A stretch of DNA of 23,056 nt. Origin: a virus. The stretch spans positions 1 through 23,056 of the IMG/VR virus record IMGVR_UViG_3300025364_000011, one strand, 5' to 3'. Below are positions 1,863-23,056 of this stretch, piece after piece. The notes beneath the pieces were generated by a model. It was not told the DNA's origin and ran no database searches. It worked only from the letters and a program-made list of their open reading frames with translations. A program made the position numbers and the translations under genes. Position 1 is the first letter of the stretch. Every line of letters begins with the position of its first letter.

Positions 1863-4310
1863 TTACGTTATTCCATATGGGACGGGGAATCCCATGTTTG
1901 ATTGACCCCCAAAGTTGTTTTGTTCAAATGATTGATTATATGAATCTGCTATACTTGAAGAGTTGCCCCCAAAATCTTTACCTATTTCATCAAAGAACGT
2001 AGCAAGGGCGTTAGTTGCTCTAGCATTAGCGACATACTCTTGACCTGCTTCATTAGTCTGTACGATTGCGTTTTGACCTTGTGGGAATCCACCGCTTGCG
2101 AATCCAGGAATATTATCAAACGTCTTACTAATAGATACCTTTTGAAACTCTGGTACATCAGGCAAGTTTAGAACATCATTAAGGTTGTTGTAGTTACGCA
2201 GTACATTGTTAACAATGTCAATAATTGCGTTGCTTACAAATTCAAACGGGTTAAGTATAATACGAGCTAACCCCTTGAATACATCAGTTAATCCTCCCTT
2301 AAAATCACCTTCAAAGAACTTCTTTATTCCACTAAATATATCTTTAAAACCCGTGGCGAAGTTCAAGAAAAATCGACCAACATTAATTAATTGTGAGCCT
2401 ATCATAGCAGCCATATTTACAAAGAACCCTAAAAATATCTGACCAATCTTTTTAACTGTTTCAAAATCAACTCCTATTCCTCCAAATACTTCTTTAAATT
2501 CTTCGCCTAGTTCTTGCGTCTGCGTTCTAATACCGCCAACATCGTCATTCCAAGCTTTAGCTAGTAAACCAACACCTATTATTAGCCCGCCTATAATAAG
2601 CGTAGCAGGACCCCCCAATAAAAAGAACGCCCCTCCCAATAATCCAACCGCTAAAGCAACGCCTGTAATACCAGTAGCAAGACCAGGATTAGCGTCAACA
2701 ATCTTAAGCGCTAAATCGAGATATTTGCCTAGCTCTTCATTAAGCTTATTCCAAGTGGGGTCAAGGTCTTCTCCGATTAATATATCAAGTTCTTCTAATT
2801 TAGCTCTATTAATATCCGCAGCGAATCCGCCTTGCTCAAGACGTGCTTGAAAGGCAGCTTCTGCTGCATCAACGTTTTGTCTAAGCCCCGCTGATTTAGC
2901 CAGTGCCTTTTCTTCTTGAGTCAAAGAGTCGTAGTTCTTATCTCTCAGTTTACCCTCCGCTTGTAATATGGCAAGCCCTCTCGGCCCGATTTGACTAATA
3001 TATTCATCTTGCAAACCTGCCCGCTCTCCAAGCGCTGCATTTTCAGTTCTAAATTGTTGCGTGAGCTGAGCTATTCCTTCTTCCATGCCAATAGTTCCTG
3101 TACTAGCTATTTTTACAAAGCCTGCTAAGGTTTTTTCTACTTCTTCAGGATTAGTAAGACCTGCAAGCTGTAAATCTGCCGCCCCCTTAAGTAACGTAGA
3201 ACGAGTAACCCCAACTTTTTTACCTAAGTTATTAAATACGTTATCAATAGCTTTGTTAGTTTCAGCGCTTAACTTACCTACATCAACATTTTCTTCTGAT
3301 GCAGCTTCATCTAGTGCCTTTTGAAATTCGTCTGATACACTCTGTATCGTTCCACCTCCTCCACCGCTCACACTAGCTTGTAAGTCTTGTAATTTGCGCC
3401 GCGCTGGCTCTATATCAATGTCAAACTTGTTTTGTGCAGATGATAATTGAAAGCGTAAGTCATCAACTTGAAGCTTGAGCGTATCAACTTGATTCTTCAA
3501 AATATCCTCTTGAACTTTAGCTTGATCTTTTATTACCTGCGTTTCATTATCTATAACATCAAGCTTTTCTTCTCTTAAGTTAATCTCTTTTTGCAGCTGG
3601 TTAATCTGGTTACTAATAACCAATGTAGCGAACGGATCATTGGCAACCTCAGCCTGCGCCTTTTGAACGTCTAGTTGATCTTTTTGTACTTTGAGTTGTC
3701 TAAGTTCAGAATCAAGAACACCGCCACCTAATTGCTCACGTCTTAATTTAACCCGCTCATCAGTTTCTTTTTTAAGTAGGTTGATCTGTCTATTGATTAA
3801 ATTATACTCTCTATTTTTCACTGCTATTGATTGTTCAACGGCTTGCACTGAGTCGTTAAAAGCCCGCTCTTGTAAGTCTAATTCTCTACTAAGGTTCTTT
3901 GAAGCGTTGCTTGCTCCCTCCGTTGCTTTAGTTTCTTTATAAATATTATCAATGTTGTACCCGATAGCCAAAGCCTTTTCTTCATAGCTCTTGGTAGTAT
4001 CAGCAATCACCATTTTGGCATTTTGCTGTCTATTAGCGTATGCCTGTACCGAACCAGATAAACTAGCTTGAGCGATCCGAACTTGTTTGTATGACTGTAC
4101 TGCATTATTAGCAAAGTCAAAAATTGCTTTAGTTGAAATAGCAGAAAAGGCAGCACCCAAAGCACGACCCAAAACCGACCCCATTTGAGTACCTTGTTTT
4201 TGTAAGTTACCTTGATTTTGTTGAGTCGCTTTATTGATTCCTTGAGATATTCCGCTATTAAGCTTACTATTATCTACCTCAAGTACTACTTTGGTTTGGA
4301 TGTCTGCCAT
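1863..4310 (-). CDS. Tape measure protein
   Basis: At 815 residues this is the longest gene of the tail module and lies just after the tail assembly chaperone frames, overlapping the second by 25 bases. It sets tail length and is threaded inside the tail tube. Residues about 140-315 are rich in Q, K, E and L with heptad spacing, as in long coiled coils, and end in a glycine run (316-320). Two hydrophobic blocks follow at about 544-585 and 623-655, typical of the membrane-interacting part of tape measure proteins. The C-terminus carries the glycine-rich GFASGGFPQGQNAIV segment followed by NEAGQEYV, a signature seen at the end of many tape measure proteins (G-E-x-G-x-E). By the usual 0.15 nm per residue the tail would be roughly 120 nm. 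Confidence 0.93.
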   Translation of the reverse strand: MADIQTKVVLEVDNSKLNSGISQGINKATQQNQGNLQKQGTQMGSVLGRALGAAFSAISTKAIFDFANNAVQSYKQVRIAQASLSGSVQAYANRQQNAKMVIADTTKSYEEKALAIGYNIDNIYKETKATEGASNASKNLSRELDLQERAFNDSVQAVEQSIAVKNREYNLINRQINLLKKETDERVKLRREQLGGGVLDSELRQLKVQKDQLDVQKAQAEVANDPFATLVISNQINQLQKEINLREEKLDVIDNETQVIKDQAKVQEDILKNQVDTLKLQVDDLRFQLSSAQNKFDIDIEPARRKLQDLQASVSGGGGGTIQSVSDEFQKALDEAASEENVDVGKLSAETNKAIDNVFNNLGKKVGVTRSTLLKGAADLQLAGLTNPEEVEKTLAGFVKIASTGTIGMEEGIAQLTQQFRTENAALGERAGLQDEYISQIGPRGLAILQAEGKLRDKNYDSLTQEEKALAKSAGLRQNVDAAEAAFQARLEQGGFAADINRAKLEELDILIGEDLDPTWNKLNEELGKYLDLALKIVDANPGLATGITGVALAVGLLGGAFFLLGGPATLIIGGLIIGVGLLAKAWNDDVGGIRTQTQELGEEFKEVFGGIGVDFETVKKIGQIFLGFFVNMAAMIGSQLINVGRFFLNFATGFKDIFSGIKKFFEGDFKGGLTDVFKGLARIILNPFEFVSNAIIDIVNNVLRNYNNLNDVLNLPDVPEFQKVSISKTFDNIPGFASGGFPQGQNAIVQTNEAGQEYVANARATNALATFFDEIGKDFGGNSSSIADSYNQSFEQNNFGGQSNMGFPVPYGIT

Positions 4311-4468
4311 AGATATTTCGTCTGTAATTTGAATTTAGGAGGTTGCTTACCCTCTTTAAGATACGGCAAGATTGCATTAACATAGTCTATATGCTCACTG
4401 CGTTGAACTTCCATCATCTTCTGATTACTCAGCTCATACCAAAGCACCCATTTGTCATGAGCAGACAA
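4286..4468 (-). CDS. Tail assembly chaperone, T-type downstream frame (probably made as a GT fusion)
   Basis: As a separate gene this frame would need a TTG start at 4466-4468 and gives 60 residues. The frame is however open further upstream: it runs without a stop from about 4600 through SWGQSERIKY into LSAHDKWVLW. It lies in the -1 frame relative to the chaperone gene at 4474-5112. This is the classic G/GT arrangement of siphovirus tail assembly chaperones, where a fraction of ribosomes shifts before the G stop codon. Slipping at GGGTTTT (4582-4588) would give a 275-residue fusion (177 residues of G plus 98 residues of T frame ending at 4286). The T part binds the tape measure protein in known systems. 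I think the fusion is the real product and the TTG start is an artefact. Confidence 0.8.
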   Translation of the reverse strand: MSAHDKWVLWYELSNQKMMEVQRSEHIDYVNAILPYLKEGKQPPKFKLQTKYLWQTSKPK

Positions 4469-4473
4469 GTATT

Positions 4474-5112
4474 TTATTCGCTCACTTTGTCCCCAGCTGT
4501 GGAGGTCTGAGAGGACTTTGGAGTAGCTTGAGATAAATGAGAATTTAGCAAGACTGGCGTTATTTCCCCCAGCCTTTGTGTAAAACCCAGTGGCTGTCCG
4601 TTTTCAGGTTCAGCGGATACATCATAAATCAATCTCTTCTTAACCGGCTCACGCAGGCTCATAAAGTCTTCTAAGCTGGCGACTTTAGTCTCTAAGTCTT
4701 TCTTGCGTAGACCATTAGCGATTATGCCAATGATTTGATTCATTAAGTCTAAGAGTTCTTGACGCTTGCTTGCGAGTCGTTCTTTTTGATCTTGATTAAG
4801 CCCAGCTACAACGCTTGTGCCTTTAGTGATTTTGAGAGCTAGTTTAGTAGCCTCAGTCATCGCTTTTTCGTATTCCGCTTGCTGTTCTGGTGATCTGTCT
4901 TGATTCTTCTCTAGACCTTCCGCCTTAATCCTCCATTCTTCATATTCTTCATAAATAGAACCGAGGGCTTGAATATCTTCTAGGCTTTGACCATTAGCGG
5001 CGGCTTCCCATGCTTTGCAAGCGTGAGCGTAGAGAGGGGATAGGTTAGCAAATTGCTCTTCCATTCCCCCATATAGTACAAGTGATTTAATTTCAATGTT
5101 TCCGTATTTCAT
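4474..5112 (-). CDS. Tail assembly chaperone, G-type
   Basis: This 212-residue, largely helical and acidic protein sits between the major tail protein and the tape measure gene, the fixed position of tail assembly chaperones. It holds the unfolded tape measure protein soluble while tail tube subunits assemble; it is not part of the virion in known cases. Charged helices fill residues about 30-150 (for example YEEYEEWRIKAEGLEKN). The last 35 residues are polar and disordered-looking and end just before a stop at 4474. A -1 slippery heptamer lies at codons 176-177, with a hairpin 7 nt further on, so the protein is also expected as a longer GT form. No sequence-level homologue is claimed; the call is from position, length and the frameshift layout. 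Confidence 0.85.
   Translation of the reverse strand: MKYGNIEIKSLVLYGGMEEQFANLSPLYAHACKAWEAAANGQSLEDIQALGSIYEEYEEWRIKAEGLEKNQDRSPEQQAEYEKAMTEATKLALKITKGTSVVAGLNQDQKERLASKRQELLDLMNQIIGIIANGLRKKDLETKVASLEDFMSLREPVKKRLIYDVSAEPENGQPLGFTQRLGEITPVLLNSHLSQATPKSSQTSTAGDKVSE
4552..4574 (-). promoter_or_regulatory. Hairpin stimulating the -1 frameshift
   Basis: Seven bases (ACACAAA) after the slippery site, GGCTGG (4569-4574) can pair with CCAGTC (4552-4557), giving a 6-bp stem with one G-U pair and an 11-nt loop. A spacer of 5-9 nt is the range used by known stimulatory structures. A pseudoknot was not searched for. Confidence 0.55.
4582..4588 (-). promoter_or_regulatory. -1 programmed frameshift slippery site GGGTTTT
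   Basis: On the minus strand the bases read G GGT TTT in the frame of the chaperone gene, an X XXY YYZ heptamer. Codons 176 (GGT) and 177 (TTT) can re-pair as GGG and TTT one base back. The -1 frame is closed by TGA codons just upstream (within codons for AEPEN) and is open downstream all the way to 4286, so the shift must happen here or a little later. No other good heptamer is seen in the overlap. Confidence 0.8.
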
Positions 5113-11120: not shown

Positions 11121-11122
11121 AG

Positions 11123-11143
11123 CATTAAGACAGAAAGTTAATG
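11123..11143 (-). promoter_or_regulatory. Hairpin in the scaffold leader
   Basis: On the minus strand CATTAA (11138-11143) pairs with TTAATG (11123-11128) around a 9-nt loop, three bases before the scaffold start codon. It could hide the start region of the message. The arms resemble the hairpins behind the capsid and tail tube genes. Confidence 0.35.
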
Positions 11144-11144
11144 T

Positions 11145-11179
11145 TGACTATTTTACAAATAATGACTAGTCAATGACTA
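11145..11179 (+). promoter_or_regulatory. TGACTA repeats, possible operator of the RHH protein
   Basis: TGACTA occurs at 11145, 11163 and 11174, and its inverse TAGTCA at 11167-11172, so 11163-11172 is the perfect palindrome TGACTAGTCA. RHH proteins usually bind short repeated half-sites in front of their own gene. The cluster lies between the divergent scaffold and RHH genes and overlaps the RHH start codon. Confidence 0.45.
11156..11169 (-). promoter_or_regulatory. Copy of a repeated 13-14-nt motif upstream of the scaffold gene
   Basis: On the minus strand the site reads CTAGTCATTATTTG and ends 36 bases before the scaffold start codon. The identical 14-mer lies 37 bases upstream of the portal gene. 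It may be part of a late promoter, an operator, or an mRNA leader element. It also overlaps the possible RHH operator. Confidence 0.5.
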
Positions 11180-11382
11180 TGAAAAAAATTGATAAGTCTT
11201 GGCAAGATAGACGTTATATTAACGCTTTGAACGTAGATAAAGAGCAGGCTACTATATTAAAGAATAAAGCTAAACAATACGCTTTTACACGTGCTCATTT
11301 ACTGCGTGTGATTATTCAAGCGTATTTGGATGGCAAGCTCGATATTTCAGAATATCAGCCAGACTGGTCTAAAGAATATTAA
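11173..11382 (+). CDS. Ribbon-helix-helix DNA-binding protein inserted in the late operon
   Basis: This 69-residue gene is the only plus-strand gene within the head-tail block. Residues 15-57 fit an Arc/CopG-type ribbon-helix-helix: a strand (YINALNVD), helix A (KEQATILKNKAKQYA), a turn (FT) and helix B (RAHLLRVIIQAYLDGKL). It is divergent from the scaffold gene (52 bases apart) and its 3' end overlaps the protease gene by 14 bases tail to tail. ATG at 11173 or at 11179 could be the start. The palindrome TGACTAGTCA just upstream suggests self-regulation and perhaps control of the scaffold-capsid genes. It looks like a moron-type insertion; specific target unknown. Confidence 0.75.
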   Translation: MTMKKIDKSWQDRRYINALNVDKEQATILKNKAKQYAFTRAHLLRVIIQAYLDGKLDISEYQPDWSKEY

Positions 11383-12631
11383 CTTTATATTTTGATTTAA
11401 TATTTACACGATACGGCTGTAATACTGTATACTCTCTATTCTGCTCAGCACTAGAAAAGATAATTGACTCTATGTTGAAGCTTATATTCTTAGCTATTTC
11501 TTTAATGCTTTCACGGTAGCCTTCCGCATTACCCTTTTGCAAATAGGCCAGTGTTGTATGTGCTATATAATCAGGGTACTCTGACTCGTATGGTAGTGTC
11601 TTTAATAATTCATTTGCTTTGTTGAATCTTTCGTCTGCCATTTCGAGAACTAAAACGTCATAATCGTCTTTTTCAAATATAGTTACACCAATACACTTTG
11701 GGTTGATTTTAGTATTATAAGTCCCAACGAGAGTAAAAACATTAGTCCAGTCTTGTGATGCAAATAGTACGTTTTCTATTTGTTCTTTTGTCACACTAGG
11801 CAATAAGCCATATAAAAGCGTTGTGTGTGGGTTCTTTTCTATTCCATCTTTTATTGGATCGTTTGGATCAACATACAAATCTTCTTTGCGAATAATCTTA
11901 GTCAGAGGGTTCAATATATCATCTTTGTATTTCGCCATCACACAACCGTAGTTTTTGCTCTTTTTATTAATCAACTCAAACGGGATTTTGCTTGCCGTCT
12001 TCATATTAACAATCTCGTCTTCAAACTCTACATCAACATAGTAGTGATTATCATTATCAACATAGACCGTTTTAACGTTTCCGATTGTATCAAAGACTTT
12101 TACTCGTTCCCCTAGCTTGTACTGCTTAGCCAACTCTTCATCTGTAACAACGGTAAACTTAGCTTTAGGATTGGCTGGATCACCTGTCACTGTTAGCTCA
12201 TTGATCTCTACCTCGGTGTCTATGCGTTGCTTAGTCTTTTGATTGGTCAACCAGTTCAATGTTTTCCAGTTGAGTGAAAAGCTTGTCTTCTTGTTTGCTA
12301 AAATATCTTGTATTAATTCTTGATCAGTAATATTAGCAACAACATCAATTTTCATCTCTAAAGGTTTTGGTGAGTCAATAGAATAGTCTTCAGGTGCGTA
12401 TTCCATGTTGAGTACATTACCAAGCTGTCTGTTACCATATTTACGCTCAAAACCATGCTCAGCCATGATCTTACCACCTTTATCAATAAACTTCTTATAT
12501 GACTGTTTAAATGCGTTTGGCGAGATAGTGATTGATTCACCATGCTTATCAAGGTGATTAGTGGTTGCAGTGCCACGGATTACAAGCCCGCCTGCTGTTA
12601 ATGATTTGGTGTTGATTATAAAGTCGATCAT
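11369..12631 (-). CDS. Prohead protease fused to an SH3-like segment and a 2H phosphoesterase domain
   Basis: The 420-residue protein has three parts. Residues 1-160 are an HK97-type prohead serine protease: GTATTNHLDKHGE, catalytic His59 in MAEHGF, the Ser at 117 or 119 in TSFSLNW, and INELTVTGDPANP (143-155), matching the usual 'E.S.v..PAnp.A' end. Residues about 172-218 (GERVKVFDTIGNVKTVYV, then YYVDVEFEDE) resemble a small SH3/KOW barrel. Residues about 228-410 carry two H-x-T motifs, PHTTLLYGL (His269, Thr271) and AHTTLAYL (His358, Thr360), the signature of 2H phosphoesterases such as LigT-like enzymes and the anti-CBASS nuclease Acb1. The protease would process scaffold and capsid. The 2H part may act on RNA or cyclic nucleotides; substrate is unknown. 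It overlaps the portal gene by 4 bases. Confidence 0.88.
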   Translation of the reverse strand: MIDFIINTKSLTAGGLVIRGTATTNHLDKHGESITISPNAFKQSYKKFIDKGGKIMAEHGFERKYGNRQLGNVLNMEYAPEDYSIDSPKPLEMKIDVVANITDQELIQDILANKKTSFSLNWKTLNWLTNQKTKQRIDTEVEINELTVTGDPANPKAKFTVVTDEELAKQYKLGERVKVFDTIGNVKTVYVDNDNHYYVDVEFEDEIVNMKTASKIPFELINKKSKNYGCVMAKYKDDILNPLTKIIRKEDLYVDPNDPIKDGIEKNPHTTLLYGLLPSVTKEQIENVLFASQDWTNVFTLVGTYNTKINPKCIGVTIFEKDDYDVLVLEMADERFNKANELLKTLPYESEYPDYIAHTTLAYLQKGNAEGYRESIKEIAKNISFNIESIIFSSAEQNREYTVLQPYRVNIKSKYKVNIL

Positions 12632-14837: not shown

Positions 14838-16330
14838 AAGATAATACCTACTACTTTTGCCTTCTCTTTCATCTTGTAATTATCTAAACATCCCGAGATC
14901 ATATCAACAAAGTCATCATGCACTCCTTTTTGTGGGAATGCCAGTAATTGATCCAGTGCAGTCTTGTTTGATTCATGTTTGTGGGGCAGTATTATTCTAT
15001 TAGCTATGAAATGTGGCTTGTGTGGTGTAAAGTGGCTTACCTTATCCGCTGAATACTTTAACTCTTCAATAGGTAAACTTAACCCGTATTCTTCTTTTGC
15101 CAGTTTCTTAATCCAATACCCAAAACCTTGATTAGCTTTCTCATCATAAGTAAATCGTCCTACTTCGTACCCTTGAATTATAAGTTTTTTATAGAACTCG
15201 ATAGACAAGCGGGCTTGCTTTTCTACGTCTAACTTTTCGAGGATATAGTCGAGTAAGTAGTAATTGCTGTCGCTACCTTCTCCAATCGCTCCTAAACAAA
15301 AATAGTCGCTTGTTTGCTTGCCAGTATGGGTAGTATCAGCATGTAGATATACTTTCTTAATCTCAGGAAGCTTGACTTGATTAGCCTGCTCTTGTGCATC
15401 AGTCCAGAACCTTAACCAGTCAAACTTGACCATACCACTGCTTACTAAAAGCGGATTACATAAATATTCTTGGCTAAATGTAAACTCATCTTTTGCCATT
15501 TCGTTAAGCTGGTCGGTTGTCTTCCAATCTGGATCAACCGACTCACCGTTAATCAAAGCAGGTATCTTTAGTTTATCCCAGTTATGGTATGGTGGTTCAC
15601 CTTTGAATATCGTCTCAATTATATCTGTAGGGTGCAAGGGTGTGTTTAATATCTCCATTATTCCTGTCTCTGAAAGTGCTGGTGTCAAGGCTTTCTTATA
15701 CCAATCAAGAGACTTCGTACGCATCTCTTCACTCCTTACATCTTCATCATCCATTATATCATCTGAAATAATCTTTGTTGGCCTTGAACCTTTATCAAGT
15801 AATCCTCTAGGATTTTGTCCTGTTGAGATAGTTCTTATTCTTGTTTTACCAAATATTGTTAAATCGGATTTATTCCATGAATCTTTGTCATGTATTGGCT
15901 CACCGTATATCCAGCGAATATTCTCGTTAGTTTCAAACTCGTCTTTGATAGCCTTGAGTTTGTCAATACTCATCTTATCGTTATATGAGTTAATAACTAC
16001 GTACGAGTGCGTGTTGTAGATAGCTTCATATACTCCCGCTAGTACGAGTTGAATTGAAGATTTGCCCGCTCCTCTATATGCTTTGGTTGCTTTGTGGGGC
16101 TTATTCCTTACCCCTATTTGAATATGATCTAGTAATTGATAGTGTACGTCTTTAAATGATCTGTAAAAGTAGTGTGGTAATACGAGATATGCAAAAAGAG
16201 CTATTAACTCTGGATCTGCTAAATCTTTTTTAATAGATGCTTTTGTTATTGTGTCCCCCTGCGATTTGATACATCGCTCAATATTGGCTTTGTATTCTTC
16301 AACGTATCTTTGATTAATCCTTTTTACCAT
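14834..16330 (-). CDS. terL: Terminase large subunit
   Basis: This 498-residue ATPase-nuclease packages DNA into proheads. The ATPase half shows Walker A at about 83-92 (KAYRGAGKSS, Lys90), Walker B at about 186-191 (KIISDD) and a motif III-like ILNTPLHPTD (227-236). The nuclease half shows a first acidic strand LHADTTHTGK (Asp332), a middle segment FTYDEKANQGFG (Asp396, Glu397) and the closing GVHDDFVDMISG (Asp472, Asp473), as in RNase H-fold terminases. The N-terminus overlaps the small terminase gene by 17 bases. The order small terminase, large terminase, portal is standard. Confidence 0.95.
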   Translation of the reverse strand: MVKRINQRYVEEYKANIERCIKSQGDTITKASIKKDLADPELIALFAYLVLPHYFYRSFKDVHYQLLDHIQIGVRNKPHKATKAYRGAGKSSIQLVLAGVYEAIYNTHSYVVINSYNDKMSIDKLKAIKDEFETNENIRWIYGEPIHDKDSWNKSDLTIFGKTRIRTISTGQNPRGLLDKGSRPTKIISDDIMDDEDVRSEEMRTKSLDWYKKALTPALSETGIMEILNTPLHPTDIIETIFKGEPPYHNWDKLKIPALINGESVDPDWKTTDQLNEMAKDEFTFSQEYLCNPLLVSSGMVKFDWLRFWTDAQEQANQVKLPEIKKVYLHADTTHTGKQTSDYFCLGAIGEGSDSNYYLLDYILEKLDVEKQARLSIEFYKKLIIQGYEVGRFTYDEKANQGFGYWIKKLAKEEYGLSLPIEELKYSADKVSHFTPHKPHFIANRIILPHKHESNKTALDQLLAFPQKGVHDDFVDMISGCLDNYKMKEKAKVVGIIF

Positions 16331-16706
16331 TTGGGAGTAATGTTAATGGCACTGCTAAACTTTCGCCGTCTTTACCCGTCATCTCTTGGCGTGTGCTGAA
16401 CTCACCTTTAAGTTTACGCTCCAAAAATTTCAAAGCCATATCGGGGTCGGTCTTGATCGACTTGACCAGTGTTTGGCGTGCTTCGAGGACTGGTCTTTGT
16501 TTCAAAAGCTCTTTTCTGAGGACAAACTTTGGGTACGTTGCTTCATAATCATAAAGAGCATCTTTAGAAACCCCAGCATAAAAGCACGCTTCTAAATCAG
16601 TACAACCAAGTGCCCACGCCTGTTCAAGTTTGTCCACGACTGAACCGTTGATTTTTGCGGGTCTTCCAGTCTTTTTCTTTTTAGGGTCTACTAAAGGTCT
16701 CGGCAT
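16314..16706 (-). CDS. terS: Terminase small subunit
   Basis: The 130-residue protein starts with a basic KKKKTGRPAK segment and a helix-turn-helix like region (about 22-58, with ALGCTDLEACFYAGVSKDALYDYEATYP), then helices ending in MALKFLERKLKGEFS. The pattern 'G.t..eAc..aGvs...lY.y...p.f' is common in small terminases, which recognise the packaging start on phage DNA and load the large subunit. It overlaps the start of the large terminase gene. Two bases separate it from the upstream PLD-like gene. Confidence 0.85.
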   Translation of the reverse strand: MPRPLVDPKKKKTGRPAKINGSVVDKLEQAWALGCTDLEACFYAGVSKDALYDYEATYPKFVLRKELLKQRPVLEARQTLVKSIKTDPDMALKFLERKLKGEFSTRQEMTGKDGESLAVPLTLLPNGKKD

Positions 16707-18675: not shown

Positions 18676-19532
18676 AATAAATAATAGTTAGTTTCAAGTT
18701 TATTTGTGTATAAATTTTCTTTGACTTTGTTATTTGCAGTTGCTGATAATGTGGATCTATGCTCAAAAGAATTTACCAAGTTCAACGTAGACTCATAGCT
18801 ACTAAGATATATTGTATATTTGCTTTGCTCTATCCAGCTGTATAGCATTGCGTGGTCTACCTGCTCCTGATATTTAGCTGTATTAAAATAAGGTGGGTCA
18901 AGATATATAATAGTCTTATCAATAGGTGCTGTTATTGATACTTGCTCGTAAGATACATTGCTTATTACTAATCGCTCTAATTGCTCTAAATGCTCTAATT
19001 GCTGTAATCGCTCTAATCGCTCTAATTGCTGTAATCGCTCTAATTGCTGTAATTCAAACCTCCCTTCTATCTTCTTCTCTTCTATAAACTGCTTTAATAG
19101 TTTGTTTCTTGTCGCAGAAGTTCTATCATAACTATTTGCCATAAGGGAATCATGTGCTTGTTTTTTTATAGGCTCAACTGATTTGCCAAATAGGTAGTCT
19201 GACTGATTGTTTCCAAAGCTCCAGCACACTTTTGCAAGCCCTGATCTCCAAGTATCCCCATTTTTTAATAACTCAAATTCTTCTCTTGAAATCCAATTGA
19301 AAAAGTCATCTGTTACACCGTCTCTTTGTATCTTTCTGAGCAATTCACAAACACCTGTATTAAGATCATTGTATATAACTTTCTTTCTACGTTTCAAAAA
19401 CTCAAAAGATATAGCTCCACCTCCTCCAAATAAGTCATAAACATATTCAGTTTCTGGATAAGCTGTAAGTATATGTGTAACTATTTTTGACGCTAACTTG
19501 CGTTTACTCCCCATGTACGGTAATCCAATCAT
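18672..19532 (-). CDS. D12-class DNA adenine N6-methyltransferase with leucine-rich repeat insert
   Basis: The 286-residue enzyme transfers a methyl group from S-adenosylmethionine to adenine in DNA. It shows YMGSKRKLA (6-14) and DLFGGGGAISF (33-43) for cofactor binding and the catalytic DPPY at 212-215, in the order of Dam-like enzymes. The insert at about 161-188 is made of LQQLER, LERLQQ and LEHLEQ units encoded by a 9-bp tandem repeat; similar Leu-Gln-Glu repeats occur in other phage D12 methylases. The target sequence cannot be read. The start overlaps the previous gene's stop (ATGA). It may guard phage DNA from restriction or mimic host methylation. Confidence 0.92.
   Translation of the reverse strand: MIGLPYMGSKRKLASKIVTHILTAYPETEYVYDLFGGGGAISFEFLKRRKKVIYNDLNTGVCELLRKIQRDGVTDDFFNWISREEFELLKNGDTWRSGLAKVCWSFGNNQSDYLFGKSVEPIKKQAHDSLMANSYDRTSATRNKLLKQFIEEKKIEGRFELQQLERLQQLERLERLQQLEHLEQLERLVISNVSYEQVSITAPIDKTIIYLDPPYFNTAKYQEQVDHAMLYSWIEQSKYTIYLSSYESTLNLVNSFEHRSTLSATANNKVKENLYTNKLETNYYLL
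18971..19051. repeat. Nine tandem 9-bp repeats in the methylase gene
   Basis: Nine units of the type AT(C/T)GCT(C/G)TA run head to tail (unit 3 starts AAT), encoding Leu-x-x triplets in the enzyme. Copy-number changes keep the reading frame but lengthen or shorten the insert. Units differ by one or two bases, so the tract is partly decayed. Confidence 0.9.
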
Positions 19533-21092: not shown

Positions 21093-21199
21093 CTATGCTC
21101 AGAGGGTTATTTATTTTAATCCTCCTTATTTTTTCTTTTATTTATTCATTTAACTTATATTCTCAATCTTATGACAACTCAATCTACATCTCAAATTAA
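21077..21199 (+). CDS. 40-residue single-span membrane peptide
   Basis: ATG at 21077 lies inside the end of the upstream gene and the frame stops at 21199, 29 bases into the annealing protein gene. The peptide has a basic start (MRDLLTMLRG), a strongly hydrophobic span (LFILILLIFSFIYSFNLY) and a polar end. It fills the 78-base gap between neighbours. It may be a real early membrane peptide or only a hydrophobic frame in T-rich DNA. Confidence 0.4.
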   Translation: MRDLLTMLRGLFILILLIFSFIYSFNLYSQSYDNSIYISN

Positions 21200-21737
21200 A
21201 CTTAACACACCGCTTACTACTGATGAAATAGACTTTAGAGTGCAATCAGTAGGATCATATAAGAAAGGTACTGAAGTGCAAGTATTCGCTATTATGTTAG
21301 CGTATAAAGATGCTCGGGTTGATATGAAGAGGCTTGACGATGTCTACGGAGTTGATAAATGGCAAAAGACTTATGAGATAATCAATGGTAATCTTTTTTG
21401 TAAGGTTGGTATTTACTCAGAAACTCTTAGTCAATGGATTTGGAAAATGGACGTAGGAGTTCCTAGCAAAACCGAAGGAGTCAAAGGAGAAGCCTCAGAC
21501 GCTTTTAAGAGGGCTTGCTTCAATCTAGGAATTGGTAGAGAACTATACGAATACCCTTCAATTTTTATTAACCTTAATGAAGGTGAATATCAACAAAAAG
21601 GTGATAAGTATGTTATGACACCTAAATTCCAAAAAGGTCTTGTATGGCAAAGTGGCTTCAACGTAGACGGTAAACTTGTATTACTGACCTGCGTTGATAG
21701 TAATGGCAAAACAAGATTTAATTACTCAGTAAAATAA
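21171..21737 (+). CDS. Rad52-family single-strand annealing protein
   Basis: The 188-residue protein matches the Rad52/Sak-type recombinase pattern: LNTPLTTDEIDFRVQSV (11-27), AYKDARVDMKRLDDVYG (44-60), W64, a CKVGIY strand (77-82) and the strongly typical TEGVKGEASDAFKRAC with GIGRELYEYP (101-129). These segments form the DNA-binding groove of annealing rings. It would pair complementary strands in phage recombination or repair. The start ATG follows TTCTCAATCTT and lacks a Shine-Dalgarno. It can work with the resolvase-like nuclease encoded leftward. Confidence 0.92.
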   Translation: MTTQSTSQIKLNTPLTTDEIDFRVQSVGSYKKGTEVQVFAIMLAYKDARVDMKRLDDVYGVDKWQKTYEIINGNLFCKVGIYSETLSQWIWKMDVGVPSKTEGVKGEASDAFKRACFNLGIGRELYEYPSIFINLNEGEYQQKGDKYVMTPKFQKGLVWQSGFNVDGKLVLLTCVDSNGKTRFNYSVK

Positions 21738-22754: not shown

Positions 22755-23056
22755 ATGTCTAAAAAATACGAACTAACTAACACAACTATACAGCACAACG
22801 GAGTAACACTCTATCAAATAAAAGCGTTAAAGAACTTTGGTAGTGTATCTAAAGGAGAACTCGGAGGATACATCGAAAAAGAAAAAAACTTATCACAAGA
22901 AGGCAACGCTTGGGTCTATGGCGATGCTCGTATCTATGGCGATGCTCAGGTCTATGGCGATGCTCAGGTCTATGGCGATGCTTGGGTCTATGGCGATGCT
23001 CGTATCTCTGGCGATGCTCGTATCTCTGACGATGCTCGTTTATGCGCTAAAAAAGA
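22755..23056 (+). CDS. Hexapeptide-repeat (left-handed beta-helix-like) protein, partial
   Basis: Only the first 100 codons are visible; the gene runs off the window. Residues 1-50 form a head with TLYQIKALKNFG and GELGGYIEKEKNLSQEGNA. From residue 53 come six-residue repeats with the form (W/R/Q)(V/I)(Y/S)GDA, seven visible. Repeats with a small or aliphatic residue every six positions form left-handed beta helices. Phage proteins beginning 'G.v..GdlGGyIE.e.NLs..GNAWV.G.A' are widespread and of unknown function. It lies in the early gene block. Confidence 0.82.
   Translation, partial: MSKKYELTNTTIQHNGVTLYQIKALKNFGSVSKGELGGYIEKEKNLSQEGNAWVYGDARIYGDAQVYGDAQVYGDAWVYGDARISGDARISDDARLCAKK
22911..23036. 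repeat. Seven tandem 18-bp repeats
   Basis: Seven units with core TATGGCGATGCT (TCT in units 6-7, GAC for GGC in unit 7) repeat at 18-base spacing. They encode the six-residue beta-helix turns. The two CAGGTC units (22947-22982) are identical, showing recent duplication or gene conversion. Confidence 0.92.

Follow-up and report, generated by a model that had tools for sequence, protein, structure and literature searches.

The 212-codon gene beside the tape measure gene of an uncultured tailed phage probably encodes a lambda-G-like tail assembly chaperone, and a lambda-type programmed -1 frameshift within it probably yields a second, longer product, so that both G and GT are made. Judging from the sequence, we put the probability of this reading at about 0.86. 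A single gene that supplies both tail-assembly helper proteins through a -1 slip is a textbook arrangement in tailed phages. The mechanism has long been known, and the case described here is ordinary in kind: it is a further case, in a virus whose searches turned up no close relatives. The gain would be for annotation, in a phage with almost no matches to its tail genes: a single chaperone gene with a long frameshifted product would take the place of two genes. It would also add an example of the heptamer GGGTTTT with an unusually clear hairpin.

Genome and gene neighborhood

The analyzed sequence is the IMG/VR record IMGVR_UViG_3300025364_000011, 23,056 bases in length, which we call the window. 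The late genes are located on the minus strand and run from the small and large terminase through the portal to the tail genes. The small terminase matches phrog_4102 (E 1.3e-15), the large terminase phrog_38 (E 1e-67), and the portal phrog_2662 (E 1.1e-7).

The 212-aa gene lies between the gene of a 445-aa protein and the tape measure gene (Table 1), which is where lambda and HK97 encode their tail assembly chaperones. One of its flanks is confirmed by the match to phrog_28, and the other is assigned by position. Searches with the 445-aa protein against PHROG, Pfam, and NCBIfam gave no match of note and no major tail family; a solved structural relative of this protein was looked for and none was found. 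The first codons of the tape measure gene overlap the final part of T.

Several other features of the window were recorded. A Rad52/22-family protein (PF04098, E 1.7e-9) is encoded at 21171-21737 on the plus strand, opposite to the late genes. Tandem repeats occur at 22908-23039 (18-bp unit, about 7 copies) and, within the DNA methylase gene, at 18968-19054 (9-bp unit, about 10 copies). Between the portal and capsid genes a 420-aa protein is encoded (11369-12631, minus strand). Its residues 223-369 match phrog_755 (E 6.3e-11), and, below the cut-off, Acb1 of Pfam (E 6.4e-5). The protein carries HTT motifs at residues 269 and 358; such motifs are the hallmark of 2H phosphoesterases. Its residues 1-160 have no family match and, by eye, resemble an HK97-type prohead protease. 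If true, the fusion of a capsid protease and an anti-CBASS-like domain in one protein would be unusual.

Table 1. Features of the putative frameshift region and the adjacent tail genes
Feature	Coordinates	Strand	Details
Tape measure protein, 815 aa	1863..4310	-	phrog_28 E 1.5e-9; phrog_17727 E 0.0011
T frame beyond the slip: 98 codons, then TAG (4288-4286)	4286..4582	-	predicted to yield the 275-aa GT
TTG-started 60-aa ORF	4286..4468	-	probably the end portion of T rather than a gene in its own right
G frame, 212 aa, from ATG to TAA (4476-4474); putative tail assembly chaperone	4474..5112	-	directly precedes the tape measure gene
Predicted stimulatory hairpin, 8-bp stem (4576-4569 with 4557-4550) and one inner pair	4550..4576	-	-13.8 kcal/mol, z -3.68
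Spacer from heptamer to stem, 5 nt	4577..4581	-
Slippery heptamer G GGT TTT (GGGTTTT), X_XXY_YYZ phase	4582..4588	-	codons 176-177 of the 212-aa frame
TGA that shuts the -1 frame ahead of the heptamer	4604..4606	-
Candidate major tail protein, 445 aa	5148..6485	-	position only

Heptamer and reading frames

The first base of GGGTTTT at 4588-4582 is the third position of a codon, with GGT as codon 176 and TTT as codon 177. This is the sole in-phase XXXYYYZ heptamer within the 212-aa gene. From TGA 4606-4604 to TAG 4288-4286 the -1 frame has 105 open codons, 98 of which lie past the slip, and the earliest ATG, GTG, or TTG in this open frame is the TTG at 4468. The region consists of two overlapping frames, the second of which is at -1 and has no good start of its own, and the in-phase X_XXY_YYZ heptamer lies inside the overlap, as in the G/GT arrangement of lambda. 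The predicted products are G of 212 aa and GT of 275 aa. In these respects the first-pass annotation is borne out: it had put GGGTTTT in phase at codons 176-177, with a -1 frame shut just upstream and open for 98 codons downstream, and it had derived proteins of 212 and 275 residues, which agree with the frame limits.

Two other candidates were considered and rejected. GGGAAAT at 4568 is out of phase. Transcriptional slippage was rejected as well, the longest runs in the region being five G and four T.

Downstream hairpin

A stimulatory mRNA structure downstream of the heptamer is common, though not required, at such sites, and one is predicted here. None of 200 shuffles was as stable as the hairpin 4576-4550, and an equal or better fold is reached at 2.1% of 3,000 positions drawn at random from this strand. 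For an 82-nt stretch a different, longer-range fold is preferred (-17.0 kcal/mol, z -1.7), which also starts close to the heptamer, 6 nt past it, and counts against a simple picture of the structure. The hairpin claimed in the first-pass annotation is predicted here too, longer and stronger than described, but its spacing of 7 nt has to be corrected to 5 nt, as the stem has 8 bp.

In a search for a pseudoknot, the best pairing of the loop with downstream sequence had 5 bp with two G-C pairs, which is too weak to claim. An Rfam search of the window gave no match.

Significance of the combination

An in-phase heptamer by itself is not rare: the 25 listed genes contain 25 in-phase XXXYYYZ heptamers in 6,311 codons (0.4% of codons). 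The combination of a heptamer in an open overlap with a hairpin is rare. This was assessed with a null model in which synonymous codons are permuted within the gene, so that the protein and the codon usage are kept. Among 20,000 permutations, an overlap of at least 44 codons was obtained in 5.5%, and an in-phase heptamer within the open overlap in about 1.9%. A heptamer in the overlap followed by a hairpin this stable was obtained in 2 of the 20,000 (2 of 5,000 in a repeat run). The absence of stops over the 61 codons beyond the G stop was reached by 1.1% of 20,000 first-order simulated sequences.

Just two of the 25 in-phase heptamers, GGGTTTT 4588-4582 and one in the endonuclease gene, precede a -1 frame that stays open for more than 37 codons. 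The latter, AAACCCC, is followed by 144 open -1 codons running into the small-terminase gene and by a weak hairpin (-2.1 kcal/mol). A second in-phase GGGTTTT is present in the tape measure gene (2352-2346, minus strand); there the -1 frame is shut at once (0 codons), and this copy can be regarded as a natural negative control.

One of two positive controls was recovered by the scan: the GGGAAAG of lambda was found, and the HK97 site was missed because the HK97 overlap has no in-phase XXXYYYZ. The scan therefore misses some known sites. The lambda site under the same null reaches 5.2%, which is not rare; therefore the null gauges how surprising a site is and sets no threshold that known sites must reach.

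Alternative readings of the -1 frame

The T frame could be expressed as a separate small protein from its own start at TTG 4468, by reinitiation just past the G stop, with the heptamer there by chance. The TTG is located just 6 nt beyond the last base of this stop (4474) and opens an ORF of 60 aa, and in-phase heptamers occur at the frequency given above. Start signals in the window speak against this explanation. ATG is the start codon of each of the 25 listed genes, and no Shine-Dalgarno-like core was found in the leader of TTG 4468. A 4-nt Shine-Dalgarno core is present in 2 of the 25 gene leaders, and the minus-strand leaders are A+T-rich; we take this combination to be as in phages of Bacteroidota. 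Furthermore, the -1 frame is open for 45 codons further upstream of the TTG, which a gene with its own start would not need, and the heptamer with its hairpin occurs jointly in 2 of 20,000 permutations. We consider a separate T protein very unlikely. The suggestion of the first-pass annotation that the TTG-started 60-residue gene is an annotation artefact is supported by the lack of an ATG, the lack of a Shine-Dalgarno-like leader, and the uniform use of ATG in the 25 genes. If 4473-4311 were otherwise a gap, its 163 nt would make it the second longest of 15 junctions, exceeded by just one of 248 nt (11121-11368).

Codon usage gives an intermediate picture, which counts against the frameshift reading. 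The T frame scores -0.04 bits per codon over its 105 codons, against reference means for 52-codon windows of +0.28 in the true frame and -0.29 off frame. Within the overlap the scores are -0.17 for G and -0.02 for T, and neither frame has a strong coding signal.

A further explanation is that the 212-aa frame encodes no tail chaperone and that the absence of stops in the -1 frame is accidental. No family match was obtained for G or T, and stop-free runs in 18 other genes extend to 52 codons in the -1 frame (offset 2) and to 88 in the +1 frame; therefore 44 overlapping codons, at 5.5% of permutations, are not extreme. This explanation has to contend with a total run of 105 codons, with a 163-nt interval from the end of G to the tape measure gene that holds no other gene, and with the position of the 212-aa gene directly beside the tape measure gene. 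We regard it as highly improbable, even more so than a separate T protein.

Sequence families and relatives

The G and T frames have no match of note in PHROGs, Pfam, and NCBIfam, that is, they were not placed in a tail-chaperone sequence family. No sequence similarity of G or T to the lambda chaperones was found. Single-sequence structure models were poor (pLDDT 46.7 and 44.8) and gave no structural match at E <= 0.001.

Viral contigs were scanned with a few exact 8-residue peptides. Such scans with G, T, the tape measure protein, and the 445-aa protein returned no relatives, but they reach close relatives only, and absence there is no sign of a unique family. The same scans with the large terminase (terL), MCP, and portal returned the same virus alone. 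A tblastn search against phages with G, the tape measure protein, the 445-aa protein, and the portal found none.

The large terminase was aligned with the best 80 of 375 viral and the best 80 of 220 genomic confirmed matches, and the loci among these best matches are all about 21-30% identical. In 166 loci (L001 and L002 left out), a small terminase match was present in 9, a methylase match in 2, and a match to the tail genes in none. A search with the portal protein over 9 of these records also gave no match. The small terminase (16314-16706, minus strand) is 51% identical over 116 residues to its counterpart in L060 and 33-43% identical to those of 8 other contigs. The portal and tail genes have no shared match in the contigs with a related small terminase.

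A second IMG/VR contig of the same virus was identified, IMGVR_UViG_3300005976_000009 (L002) of 27,346 bases. It has 8 mismatches and 0 gaps relative to the analyzed record over 14,909 shared bases. This contig, the sole near-identical one found, stops short of the 212-aa gene. An assembly or sequencing indel, in which a spurious base in the overlap would have split one 275-aa gene, is favored by the homopolymers at the junction (GGG TTTT and GGGGG) and by the lack of cover from the second contig there, yet it is as improbable as a chance-open frame, since indel errors are rare in the bases shared by the two contigs and since an indel leaves the in-phase heptamer and the hairpin unexplained.

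Proposed mechanism

From the signals seen in the sequence we infer a programmed slip, its rate, and the roles of the two proteins. Most ribosomes would end at TAA 4476-4474 and produce G. A minority would pause at the hairpin 4576-4550 with GGT in the P site and TTT in the A site on G_GGT_TTT. Both tRNAs of the paused ribosomes would slip back by one base, from GGT-TTT to GGG-TTT, and translation of 98 more codons would give the 275-aa GT. By analogy with lambda, G would coat the tape measure protein, and recruitment of the major tail protein would fall to the T part.

With somewhat less than even odds, we suggest further that the site acts in a host where Shine-Dalgarno pairing plays little part, that the G/GT ratio may be set by the heptamer and the hairpin alone, and that G and T may belong to a chaperone family without recognizable relatives in sequence.

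Comparison with known systems

By the count given in PMC10885494, the annotations of 3,679 phage genomes downloaded by its authors include 2,397 joined tail-chaperone genes. Frameshifting of 6-7% was measured for two tail-chaperone genes, according to the results cited from PMC3711429. PMC5009743 gives a G:GT ratio of about 30:1 for lambda and describes the arrangement as widely conserved despite low sequence similarity.

G_GGU_UUU is named in PMC5009743 as one of the shiftiest heptamers for mammalian ribosomes. In the measurements described in PMC4066793, R_RR.U_UU.Y is notably shift-prone in E. coli, though it mixes purines and pyrimidines. The best E. coli motifs for U_UU.Y named in the same description are H_HH.U_UU.Y, which leaves out X = G, and this counts against our reading of GGGTTTT.

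In HK97, gp13/gp14 are likewise annotated with a -1 frameshift product encoded between the major tail subunit and the tape measure protein. The HK97 overlap differs in having no in-phase XXXYYYZ by the same scan. The Burkholderia phage PhiE067 is similar in the heptamer: by its published description, a -1 shift on GGGTTTT is proposed for gp16/gp16.1 and would produce a longer tape-measure chaperone (PMC7266877). PhiE067 differs from the present virus in being a cultured myovirus, and the site is termed potential in that description (PMC7266877).

G/GT of lambda is a close parallel, with several differences in detail. The heptamer of lambda is GGGAAAG instead of GGGTTTT, and its overlap comprises 22 codons versus 44 here. 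The lambda hairpin is weaker (-11.2 versus -13.8 here), whereas its T extension past the G stop is longer (414 nt versus 186 nt here). The likeness lies in the architecture: the order is major tail, G, T, tape measure, with the major tail gene assigned here by position only; the frames overlap at a -1 heptamer that begins with GGG; and the end of T overlaps the start of the tape measure gene.
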